Of a DNA stretch of 64,000 nucleotides, positions 32,585 through 36,245 are shown one piece after another. The notes under the pieces were generated by a model. That model saw nothing but the letters and a program-made list of their open reading frames with translations. It was not told the DNA's origin and ran no database searches. Source of the DNA: Erythrobacter ramosus (lineage in GTDB: Bacteria > Pseudomonadota > Alphaproteobacteria > Sphingomonadales > Sphingomonadaceae); assembly GCF_009828055.1 (NCBI RefSeq), contig NZ_WTYB01000002.1:62001-126000 (forward strand), given 5' to 3'. Made by a program: the position numbers and the translations under genes. Each line of letters starts with the position of its first letter. Position 1 is the first letter of the stretch.

Positions 32585-32830
32585 TTACTGCGGGCCGGGG
32601 CCGCCGCGACCCGGCATGAAGCGATAGGTGATGCGCGCCTTGGTGAGGTCGTACGGCGTCAGCTCACACAGAACCTCGTCACCCACCAAGACGCGGATGC
32701 GATTCTTGCGCATCTTTCCTGCGGTGTGGCCGAGCACTTCATGGCCGTTTTCAAGCTCCACCCGGAACATCGCATTGGGCAGCAACTCAACCACGCGCCC
32801 GCGCATTTCGAGGAGTTCTTCCTTGGCCAT
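32585..32830 (-). CDS. infA: Translation initiation factor IF-1
   Basis: The protein has 81 residues, slightly longer than the common 72 because of a GRGGPGPQ tail. [40 protein letters not shown] and [20 protein letters not shown] are the invariant blocks of IF-1, an OB-fold protein that binds the ribosomal A site during initiation. AAGGAA lies six to eleven bases upstream of the ATG. It is the first gene of a leftward operon with maf, the RNase-like gene and yacG, a grouping that is common in this bacterial order. Confidence 0.97.
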
Positions 32831-33065
32831 GTAATTCCTTTTGTCCGTTGCGGCGCACAATACGCCCGTCGATGTGGGGCTGCGCTTTAGCGATGCGGGA
32901 ACCAAAAGGGAAGGCTCGTGCGTTAGGCCCACGAACTTCGGGAATTTGCAGGTTCGGTTCAGGGTGTATCGCGCATCCTTGGGCCGTTCGTCTGCGTAGT
33001 CAGTCTGCCCCCAAGGGAGCGGTAACAAGCCGCCCCGTCACAAGAATTGTAGTTAAAGGGACTCC

Positions 33066-36000
33066 ATGAACCTCTCCCCGCTCTCCCGCGCAGGCCTGCG
33101 CGCTGGCACCTGCGCTATTGCCCTTACCTTGTCCCTGCCGTTGGCAGCCAAGGAAACGGCGACCGCACAGCCGCAGCCCGAACCGGCCGCCCAGCCTGAA
33201 CAGGAAGACCTCGACAGCGCCAGCGACACCACCACGGACGGCGGCGAGATCGTTGTGCGCTCGGGGCGACTGCGGGGGCAGTTGTTTGTCGATCAGGCCC
33301 CGCTCCTTGAGCTGGATGAAACCGCAATTGCCGCGGAAGGCGTCACTTCGATCACCGACCTGATCGCCCAGATCAGCGCACGCACCGGTTCGGCCCGCGG
33401 GCGGGGCGGCGGCGGGCAGCCGGTGATTCTCGTCAACGGCATCCGCATCGGTTCCTTCCGGGAGTTTGCCAACTACCCGCCGGAAGCCCTTGCCCGGGTT
33501 GAGGTCTTTCCCGAGGAAGTCGCCCAGCGCTTCGGTTTTCCGCCTGATCGCCGGGTGATCAACCTCATCCTCAAGGACAATTATTCCAATCGCCAGGTCG
33601 ATCTGGAATACGAGATGCCGTCGCGCGGCGGCTATGCCCGCAACGAGCAGCAGCTCGGCATCCTCAAGATCGCCAATGGCGGGCGGATCAACGCCAATAT
33701 CGAGGTTCAGGACACCTCGATTCTGACCGAGGCGGAGCGCAATGTGCGGCAGACCGATGGCTCGCAGTCGCTGGTCGCGGGCGATCCCGATCAGGCCGAA
33801 TTCCGCAGCCTGCTGGCCGACACCTTCGGGGTCGACGCCAATGTCTCGTGGGCCAAGGCGATCGTCGAGAGCGGGACGTCGCTCAGCGCCAACCTCAATT
33901 ACGCGCGCGACGAGAGCCGCAGCCTCGACGGGCTCAACACCGTGACGCTGACCTCGCCCACCGGCACCAGCGCGCTGCGCACTTTCGGCGCGGACACTCC
34001 GCTCGCCCGGCGCTCCTCGAGCGACACGGTCTCGGCCGCCGGATCGATCAACCGGCCGATCAATGCCTTCCGTCTCACCACCACCTTCGACGGCTCCTTC
34101 AGCGAGACCGAGACCGAGATCGACCGGCGGCTGGGGACCGCGCAGCTCCAGGTCTTCCGCGATGCCGCGGCGGCAGGCACGCTGGCGATTACCGGTCCGC
34201 TGCCGACCAGCGCCGACAACGGCTTCGATGTCGCGCTGCGCCGGACGATTACCACCGAGACCCAGGCGACGCTCGAGGGCCCGCTCGCCGAGCTGCCTGC
34301 GGGCGAGGTGCTGGCGACCTTCGATCTCGGACTAGACTGGCGCAGGATCGAAAGCAGCGACACCCGCTCGCTCACGGGCGCCGAGCTGACCCGCCGCCGC
34401 CTGTCGACCGGCGCCAATCTGGTGGTGCCGCTGACCAGCGGGCGCGAGGAATTTCTAGACGGACTGGGCGACTTCACCCTGAACCTTCAGGCAGGGCTCG
34501 AGGACCTCAGCGATTTCGGCCTTCTCGGGGACTGGAACGCCGGGATCACGTGGAAGCCCACTGACGGTCTCGACCTGTCGGCGACCTATATCTTGCGCGA
34601 AGTCGCGCCCTCGCTCTCGGCGCTGGGCGATCCGCAGGTCACCAATTTCAACGTCCCCGTGTTCGATTTCGTGCGCGGCGAGACGGTGCTGGCCGAGGTG
34701 CTGACCGGGGGCAATCCGACCCTGCCGCCCGAGACCCAGCGCGATTGGAAGTTCTCGGCCAACTGGGAGCTTCCCTTCTGGAAGGACTCGCGCCTGACGG
34801 TCGACTACATCATGAACCGCTCGGATGACGTGGTGAGCAGCTTCCCGCAGATCACTACCGAGACCGAGGCGGCCTTCCCCGGCCGGGTGACGCGCGATGC
34901 GAGCGGCCGCGTGGTGCGGGTCGACCGGCGCTCGGTGAGCTTTACCGAGACGCGGGCGGACCGCCTCCAGTTCACCTTCTCAACCAATGGCAGCATCGGC
35001 GCTCCGGCTGAAGGTGCAGGCGGTCGTGGCGGCGGCGGCGGTGGTCGCTTTGGCGGTGGCGGTGGTGCTCCTGCTGCGGCCGCGCCTGCTGCGCCGACGA
35101 CCGGCCCGGCCCCACAGGCAGGCGCGGGTGGTCCTCCGGCGGGCGGCTTCGGCGCGCCGACAGCCGAACAGCGTGAGCAATTCATGGCCTTCCGTGCGCG
35201 CCTGTGCGCCGACGATGGTCAGGCCTTCCTCGAAAAGTTGGTGGCTGCGATCGACAGCGGCGCGGATATCTCGGCCGAGTTCCCCGGCATTGATCCTGCG
35301 CGTCTCGCGCCGATGCTGGCGCGCATCCGCGGTGCTGACGGCAAGGTCGATCCGGCGCGGCTGGCGCAATTCCGCACGCGGATTTGTAGCATCGATCCCG
35401 CTATGATGGGCGGCGGTGCACCGGGCGCTCCGGCCGGCACAGTTTCGGCGGCTATCCCGCCGCAGCTCGCCGCTTTCCGTGAGCGTGCTTGCGGCCCGGA
35501 CGGCACGGCTGCGATTGCCGAGCTGGTCGCCAAGATCGACCGCGGCGAAGATGTCTCGGCCGAGCTGCCGGGCGTCGACCCGGCTTTCATCAAGATGGCA
35601 CTCGACCGGTCGCGCCTGCCCGATGGCACCATCCCGCCCGAAGCGCTGGCGCAGTTCCAGCAGCGCTTCTGCGCGGCGGCTCCTCCGGCACAGACACCGG
35701 GCGGCGCTCCGGCGGCTGGTGGTGCACCTGCGGGTGGACCGGCCTTCAACCCGTTGGGAGGACGCAACTTCCAGGGCTGGCGGTATTTCTTCAACCTGAC
35801 CCACACGATCGAGCTCGCCAATGAGATCCTGATCGCCCCCGGCCTGCAACCGCTCGACCAGCTGGACGGTCAGGCAACAAGCGCCTTCGGCCAGCCCCGC
35901 CATTCGAGCCGCCTTGAAGCGGGTCTGTTCGGCAAGGGCGTCGGCTTCCGCCTGTCGGGCATCTACACCGGCACGACCCGCCTCGACGGGGGAGTCGGCA

Positions 36001-36245
36001 CCAGCGATCTGTTCTTCGACGACATCGCCACCTTCAACTTGCGCATCTTCGCCAACCTTGGCGAAGTGACGGGCAAGAACGAAGGCCTGCTCAAGGACTT
36101 CCGCGTCAGCCTCGTCGCCGACAACGTGTTCGACGCACAGCGCAAGGTGCGGGATTCGGCGGGTGAGACGCCGATCAATTACCAGCCTTTCGTGATCGAC
36201 CCGCTAGGGCTGTATCTGGGTATCGACCTTAGAAAGCTGTTCTAG
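33066..36245 (+). CDS. TonB-dependent receptor-like protein with internal two-Cys repeats
   Basis: The 1059-residue outer membrane protein has a signal peptide (about 1-30, SLPLAAKE), a TonB-box-like EIVVRSGRLR at 61-70, a plug domain (about 75-180, with PVILVNGIRIGSF and ALARVEVFPEEVAQRFG), and a beta-barrel rich in alternating hydrophobic strands. At about residues 650-895 the barrel is interrupted by an insert: a Gly/Ala/Pro-rich linker, a 69-residue module (706-774), a second linker, a second copy (801-869) and a third linker, after which barrel strands resume (FQGWRYFFNLTHTIEL) and run to the terminal IDLRKLF. AAAGGG precedes the ATG. The substrate is unknown. It stands alone, divergent from infA. 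Confidence 0.92.
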   Translation: MNLSPLSRAGLRAGTCAIALTLSLPLAAKETATAQPQPEPAAQPEQEDLDSASDTTTDGGEIVVRSGRLRGQLFVDQAPLLELDETAIAAEGVTSITDLIAQISARTGSARGRGGGGQPVILVNGIRIGSFREFANYPPEALARVEVFPEEVAQRFGFPPDRRVINLILKDNYSNRQVDLEYEMPSRGGYARNEQQLGILKIANGGRINANIEVQDTSILTEAERNVRQTDGSQSLVAGDPDQAEFRSLLADTFGVDANVSWAKAIVESGTSLSANLNYARDESRSLDGLNTVTLTSPTGTSALRTFGADTPLARRSSSDTVSAAGSINRPINAFRLTTTFDGSFSETETEIDRRLGTAQLQVFRDAAAAGTLAITGPLPTSADNGFDVALRRTITTETQATLEGPLAELPAGEVLATFDLGLDWRRIESSDTRSLTGAELTRRRLSTGANLVVPLTSGREEFLDGLGDFTLNLQAGLEDLSDFGLLGDWNAGITWKPTDGLDLSATYILREVAPSLSALGDPQVTNFNVPVFDFVRGETVLAEVLTGGNPTLPPETQRDWKFSANWELPFWKDSRLTVDYIMNRSDDVVSSFPQITTETEAAFPGRVTRDASGRVVRVDRRSVSFTETRADRLQFTFSTNGSIGAPAEGAGGRGGGGGGRFGGGGGAPAAAAPAAPTTGPAPQAGAGGPPAGGFGAPTAEQREQFMAFRARLCADDGQAFLEKLVAAIDSGADISAEFPGIDPARLAPMLARIRGADGKVDPARLAQFRTRICSIDPAMMGGGAPGAPAGTVSAAIPPQLAAFRERACGPDGTAAIAELVAKIDRGEDVSAELPGVDPAFIKMALDRSRLPDGTIPPEALAQFQQRFCAAAPPAQTPGGAPAAGGAPAGGPAFNPLGGRNFQGWRYFFNLTHTIELANEILIAPGLQPLDQLDGQATSAFGQPRHSSRLEAGLFGKGVGFRLSGIYTGTTRLDGGVGTSDLFFDDIATFNLRIFANLGEVTGKNEGLLKDFRVSLVADNVFDAQRKVRDSAGETPINYQPFVIDPLGLYLGIDLRKLF
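35181..35387 (+). repeat. Two-Cys module, copy 1, in TonB receptor (res. 706-774)
   Basis: This coding segment gives a 69-residue unit starting FMAFRARLC and ending QFRTRIC, with Cys714 and Cys774 near its ends. It aligns without gaps to the second copy 95 residues later, with 35 of 69 positions identical by my count. Shared blocks include LVA-x-ID-x-G-x-D, SAE-x-PG-x-DPA and LAQF. Predicted to be mainly helical. I do not recognise the module as a known domain. The paired cysteines could form a disulfide in the oxidising cell envelope. Confidence 0.85.
35466..35672 (+). repeat. Two-Cys module, copy 2, in TonB receptor (res. 801-869)
   Basis: This second copy of the 69-residue unit runs from LAAFRERAC to QFQQRFC, with Cys809 and Cys869 exactly 60 residues apart as in copy 1. 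The protein identity with copy 1 is about half, so the duplication is not very recent, yet no residue has been inserted or lost between the cysteines. It is flanked by Gly/Ala/Pro linkers on both sides (GGGAPGAPAG before, AQTPGGAPAAGG after), which suggests that the unit folds on its own. Confidence 0.85.

Follow-up and report, generated by a model that had tools for sequence, protein, structure and literature searches.

In BtuB, FepA, FhuA, Cir and PirA, T8 is a short turn of the barrel, and the internal periplasmic turns of TonB-dependent transporters are regarded as short connectors. The last strand of barrels of this type ends in the periplasm. To our knowledge, the extra periplasmic domains of TonB-dependent receptors (TBDRs) are N-terminal, and FpvA, with its N-terminal periplasmic signalling extension, is an example. 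FecA and FoxA also carry N-terminal periplasmic extensions, which can serve as a partner-docking part, as described in PMC11658791.

The locus described here lies within the window, the whole stretch of 64,000 nucleotides of DNA that was analysed, and encodes an outer-membrane receptor in whose predicted structure an internal turn of the barrel is expanded to 260 residues and holds a duplicated two-cysteine module. The features of the gene and of its product are collected in Table 1.

Table 1. Position of the receptor gene, its barrel strands, modules and linkers in the window
Feature	Residues	Window position	Strand	Basis or remark
TBDR gene, 1,059 aa		33066..36245	+	Open frame; divergent from the gene read as infA
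TonB box candidate EIVV	61-64	33246..33257	+	I62 and V64 invariant in 37/37 alignment rows
Barrel strand 16	624-644	34935..34997	+	DSSP on full-length model; our numbering
T8 insert between strands 16 and 17, 260 aa	645-904	34998..35777	+	DSSP on model
Gly/Ala/Pro-rich linker, predicted disordered	648-697	35007..35156	+	pLDDT <50; composition
Module 1, Cys 714 and 774	706-774	35181..35387	+	Self-alignment, AlphaFold2
Inter-module linker, predicted disordered	782-796	35409..35453	+	pLDDT <50
Module 2, Cys 809 and 869	801-869	35466..35672	+	Self-alignment, AlphaFold2
Linker after the modules, predicted disordered	873-902	35682..35771	+	pLDDT <50
Barrel strand 17	905-922	35778..35831	+	DSSP on full-length model

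The receptor and its turn T8

The window protein is a TonB-dependent receptor. Its barrel is recognised by the Pfam family TonB_dep_Rec_b-barrel (E 2.9e-06, 27.9 bits versus a cut-off of 27), and the Pfam Plug family matches below its cut-off (E 0.0034, 18.3 bits versus 23.9). The AlphaFold2 model of the full-length receptor, computed from an input alignment of 37 receptors (pLDDT 76, pTM 0.65), contains 22 barrel strands by DSSP in our numbering, the number that characterises TBDR barrels. Among solved TBDRs its best match is 5fp2_A (Z 23.3, rmsd 3.4, 456 aligned), and the top 50 structural matches range from Z 18.5 to 23.3. At E <= 0.001, 187 PDB chains were matched, and the best 50 of the 187 are TBDRs or SusC-type kin. 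The profile of the 37-receptor alignment found BtuB (best chain E 4.8e-07) mainly through a single part of the barrel; the segment that pairs with BtuB 3-142 and takes in the TonB box and the plug is weak alone (i-E 2.6), and within it the TonB box candidate lies opposite the start of mature BtuB. A Pfam scan of the whole protein gave two families at E <= 1, and a signalling domain ahead of the TonB box is not among them.

The names of the neighbouring genes (infA, Maf, RNase G, uvrC, purC and FAD oxidoreductase) were read by eye from their frames. The receptor gene adjoins the gene read as infA in many loci (window 32585-36245), including most of the short-module loci fetched with their flanks, and receptors beside an infA-like gene were therefore taken as orthologues, those with short modules included. 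Maf-like and RNase G-like genes often accompany infA on its side, and a gene resembling FAD oxidoreductases often lies on the other side, in many genera. The genomic place kept across many genera suggests a core role for the receptor, and the neighbours, which look like housekeeping genes, indicate no substrate or partner. An antisense open frame of 307 aa runs over the modules (window 34980-35903, minus strand) and may be a matter of chance in such DNA.

The preliminary description placed the duplicated module between two barrel strands that are normally joined by a short turn or loop, and left its side of the membrane undecided between the surface and the periplasm. The placement between such strands was borne out by the model, in which strands 16 and 17 flank the insert and the other T turns hold 2-14 residues (in order, 2, 4, 2, 2, 11, 2, 6, 260, 2 and 14 residues for all ten). 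The eleven L loops hold 3-42 residues, with short strand stretches within L3, L7, L8 and L10 counted as loop and not as barrel strands. Mapped on the barrel, the insert is predicted to consist of helical modules and disordered linkers. Six strands follow it in the model (905-922, 946-956, 959-968, 987-997, 1012-1019 and 1050-1058), and since this number is even and the chain end is periplasmic, the insert corresponds to the periplasmic turn T8; the placement also fits the alternation of short T turns and long L loops. In the model, then, both modules probably hang on the inner, periplasmic side, so that the periplasmic half of the earlier alternative is supported and the surface half is not.

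The duplicated module and its cysteines

The two modules align without a gap and are identical at 35 of 69 residues; the coordinates, residue numbers, identity and cysteine positions reported in the preliminary description were all exact on recount. Their BLOSUM62 score is 171, whereas shuffling the second copy 20,000 times gave a mean of -60.6 (SD 17.9, maximum 13). An ungapped self-match of 69 residues scores no better on any other diagonal of the receptor. The DNA of the two copies is identical at 119 of 207 positions, which indicates that the duplication is not recent.

The model of a single module, folded by AlphaFold2 from 39 aligned modules, contains four helices with a mean pLDDT of 81, a middling confidence (77 of 84 residues at pLDDT 70-90, and one of the 84 at 90 or above). 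In the full-length model each copy likewise has four longer helices, with ten-residue blocks at pLDDT 75-90 and linkers below 50. An independent fold of each copy, one of the supports named beforehand, is thus what the models predict, namely a four-helix unit between disordered linkers, and a helical fold has good support from them.

The profile searches agree with the earlier remark that the unit was not recognisable, as no known family in Pfam, NCBIfam, PHROGs or the PDB sequences convincingly matched the module. The best E-values were 0.00043 (PF23191), 0.0024 (PF14179), 0.0059 (phrog_28455) and 0.03 (NF041705). PF23191 reached 13.5 and 13.9 bits versus a cut-off of 27 in the first members scanned, and it matched 2 of 47 members; the commonest family matched 4 of 39 or 2 of 47 members in the two scans. 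The best PDB sequence was a calmodulin (E 0.62), and the best PDB folds had E 1.5 in Foldseek and Z 3.5 in VIA; an empty result in such fold lists is not counted here as proof of a new fold. The matches to the winged-helix MCM3_C, YppG, calmodulin and gasdermin, weak and confined to few members, were set aside.

Apart from C16 in the putative signal peptide, the receptor has no cysteines other than the two in each module. The spacing of these pairs was followed in 90 modules from home-genus loci and from records titled Erythrobacter, Porphyrobacter or uncultured relatives, a set from which 13 duplicate loci were excluded and in which near copies may remain. The Cys-to-Cys distance is 60 in all 90, and seven positions of their ungapped 76-residue alignment are invariant (R9, C13, G17, G31, P39, G58 and C73). 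In a wider set of 150 modules from more genera the distance varies from 37 to 64 and equals 60 in 114.

The same pairing is seen at the level of whole receptors. After 26 of the 106 receptor sequences gathered had been dropped as fragments, near copies or distant rows, the number of T8 cysteines was twice the number of modules in all 80 rows kept, provided that L118 is taken as two-copy; its third module match was treated as partial because its T8 holds four cysteines. Counted from residue 60 on, 78 of the 80 rows have no cysteine outside T8 and two have one, and the 24 module-less rows have none at all; the stretches before residue 60 (signal peptide, upstream read-through), where some rows do have cysteines, were left out of these counts. 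The home genome contains four DsbA-family matches, three strong and one weak. With cysteines that are paired and nearly exclusive to the modules, and with DsbA-family proteins at hand, one disulfide per module is the natural reading, and each module is very probably closed in this way.

Distribution, copy number and constraint

The named genome collection yielded 34 loci, of which 25 have two modules (the receptor being interrupted by a contig end in 3 of them) and 9 have one. Many belong to records titled Erythrobacter or Porphyrobacter, and the others are metagenome-assembled genomes; the nearest, Porphyrobacter sp. SLTP, shows 99% identity across the modules. The homologues with varying copies that the preliminary description looked for do exist, as orthologues carry none, one or two modules. 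A search with the whole receptor matched 45 of 61 genomes at E <= 0.001, and among these 61 the matches at E 1e-13 or better are confined to the home genus.

In the order sample of 296 genomes, the profiles of the long and the short module matched 80 and 79 genomes, respectively (E <= 0.01), and 78 each once the lone weak matches in G204 and G256 (long profile) and G118 (short profile) were removed. Every match at E 1e-4 or better falls in the home family, which we take to be Sphingomonadaceae sensu GTDB. The class sample gave matches in 7 of 289 genomes, four of them weak and outside the home family (E 0.0025-0.0097), and the phylum sample in 16 of 299, ten of them weak and outside it (E 8.7e-4 to 0.0096); below E 8e-4 both samples contain matches only in the home family. 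Several of the weak matches were read. The one in G204 (locus L143) lies at a frame that by eye resembles a sensor kinase, and the second match of G164 (L144) was also read. Of the 14 weak class and phylum matches, seven loci were read (L136-L139, L152, L153 and L155), and none of their frames looks like a receptor; L152 and L153 have the look of SurA-type chaperones, whereas in L138, L139 and L155 the lengths of the frame read and the frame matched disagree, so that another frame may be the right one. A weak match in the home genome itself (contig C1, locus L142) has a longest frame that looks like a DNA helicase. We judge the weak matches outside the home family to be due to chance. A search beyond TonB receptors, proposed at the outset, thus gave no convincing case of the module outside these receptors in the genomes sampled from the order, class and phylum.

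Other genera of the home family carry a shorter form of the module with a cysteine spacing of 37-50, and the stretch of helix 2 is missing in the modules of several of them. In two loci of one genus (L109 and L110) a module of middle spacing adjoins one of long spacing (50 and 64, 50 and 59), and these modules are possibly intermediates between the short and long forms.

The history of the insert can be followed further in receptors that lack the module. A search with the plug and barrel in 27 genomes without an earlier module or receptor found a relative at E <= 1e-30 in 21 of them (L156-L176). No module was detected in these 21 receptors by the long profile, nor by a mixed profile in the 19 kept for the tree. 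Their T8 is nevertheless long and rich in Gly, Arg and Pro; across the 24 module-less rows its length varies from 20 to 104 residues around a median of 68, and Gly, Arg and Pro make up 33%, 13% and 12.5% of it. Such a module-less T8 is an RGG-like stretch on the periplasmic side and is probably disordered. In a tree of 80 receptors from which T8 was left out (LG+G4, quick search), a branch with an SH-aLRT support of 100 has on one side the 56 receptors with modules together with the module-less L068, L069 and L158, and copy number changes 15 times, one of these changes being the spurious third copy of L118. This pattern suggests a single origin of the module within an already long, disordered turn. 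On a simple reading, L068, L069 and L158 lost their modules later, and the second copy was repeatedly lost or gained. The module tree has 7 of 92 forks starred as supported, and its copies group by position (17 changes versus 43.8 in shuffles), but this weak support means that the doubling cannot be dated.

Measured by medians, the modules look more constrained than the barrel. The median dN/dS is 0.081 for module 1 (33 pairs) and 0.109 for module 2 (25 pairs), versus 0.171 for barrel plus plug (34 pairs) and 0.163 for the linkers (33 pairs). These are Nei-Gojobori counts against the window gene, so that all pairs share the window sequence, and as dS often lies around 1, the medians are to be trusted for their order alone. 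Some pairs do not show the stronger constraint on the module, namely those with L009 and L024 (module 2) and L033 (module 1).

The possible role of the T8 arm

The anatomy and location proposed here, an arm in T8 made of two four-helix, disulfide-closed modules on flexible linkers, are very probably right. Sequence alone establishes the duplication, the varying copy number at a single site, the paired cysteines and the stronger conservation of the modules; the helices, the periplasmic side and the disulfides are well-supported predictions. The 260-residue arm, with its two compact modules and Gly/Ala/Pro linkers, would hang at the periplasmic mouth of the barrel, close to where TonB grips the TonB box of the receptor. 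There it may bind TonB, or else a partner in the periplasm to which the substrate passes; a pair of modules would bind more strongly than one or offer two sites, so that the second module could be lost and regained. According to a figure legend in a review (PMC11658791), the drawing of the sheet that TonB makes with the FhuA TonB box has turns T8 and T9 of FhuA marked as reference points; we infer from it that bound TonB sits close to T8. For a module in this place that is constrained, stapled and flexibly hung, a docking arm is the easiest reading. The home genome contains four TonB_C matches above cut-off. Docking as the function is put forward more tentatively than the anatomy, and the full statement of anatomy, location and a protein-docking arm is conceivable at somewhat less than even chances. 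The module-less orthologues L068, L069 and L158 indicate that basic transport can probably proceed without the arm.

Tethering to the wall and handing over of substrate fit nearly as well as docking. Much as the C-terminal domain of OmpA tethers its protein to peptidoglycan or another envelope structure, the arm could fix the receptor in place and handle neither TonB nor substrate. Its periplasmic position in the model agrees with this, as do linkers long and flexible enough to span to the wall and the identity of R9, G17, G31, P39 and G58 throughout the 90 modules, but peptidoglycan-binding families are absent among the Pfam matches of the module and the copy number falls to zero in close relatives, so that a tether seems unlikely. 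If the modules instead captured imported ligand where the barrel opens to the periplasm and relayed it, their place beneath the barrel and the constraint on their sequence would be accounted for; the cysteines, however, look used as staples, which leaves no obvious metal site, and we regard such a hand-over as rather improbable.

Neutral expansion of a low-complexity turn, with the modules as tolerated filler devoid of function, would explain the frequent changes in copy number and the Gly/Arg/Pro-rich T8 of the module-less relatives. It is hard to square with modules whose median dN/dS lies below that of the barrel and whose cysteine spacing is exact in the 90-module set, and we give it little credence. 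An extracellular ligand-binding or interaction module would suit the surface loops of TBDRs, which are highly variable and can bear inserts, yet strand parity in the model speaks against a surface-loop placement and makes this reading very improbable. Least probable is a degenerate pair of EF-hands that senses or binds calcium. A DGxI motif ahead of the last helix, the calmodulin match mentioned above and the EF-hand proteins among the structural matches (best Z 3.5, rmsd 2.9, 58 aligned, 6psd_A) point that way, but such Z values may reflect only a common arrangement, and a canonical or relaxed loop with acidic ligands at 1, 3, 5 and 12 occurs in none of the 150 modules; with the calcium ligands missing throughout, the EF-hand identity was dropped.

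Taken together with docking, the evolutionary evidence allows a wider and still more tentative proposal. The modules may belong to an undescribed periplasmic domain family that arose once in a disordered Gly/Arg/Pro turn, was stapled by a disulfide, gained a helix in one lineage, was repeatedly doubled or lost, and would now give the receptor an arm devoted to docking on the face where TonB binds. A conserved, copy-variable and probably disulfide-closed domain in T8, in a receptor whose genomic position is retained across many genera of one family, would imply that functions can reside in this turn, and what it predicts about the neighbour of TonB during transport can be tested. The natural series, which leads from a disordered turn through short, long and paired modules to loss, would make the birth of a domain from a low-complexity stretch traceable.

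The window protein is a known kind of transporter with an addition absent from the libraries and literature searched. The coverage of that literature was partial; no description of a domain in T8 was found in it, PMC11345257 is not on such an insert, and a word search of PMC10746277 was negative. With BtuB, which its profile matches, and with FepA, FhuA, Cir and PirA, the receptor shares the 22-strand barrel and a probable plug, and it differs from these classical transporters in a T8 of 260 aa with two predicted modules. Its module-less relatives (L156-L176) are receptors of the same type and have a long Gly/Arg/Pro-rich T8, but no module. An extra periplasmic part is what it has in common with receptors of the FecA and FoxA type, whose extension is N-terminal and stands ahead of the TonB box, whereas that of the window receptor lies inside an internal turn. 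If the proposed reading is true, TonB-dependent receptors would have an unrecognised route for adding a periplasmic partner domain, via T8 and not via the N-terminus.
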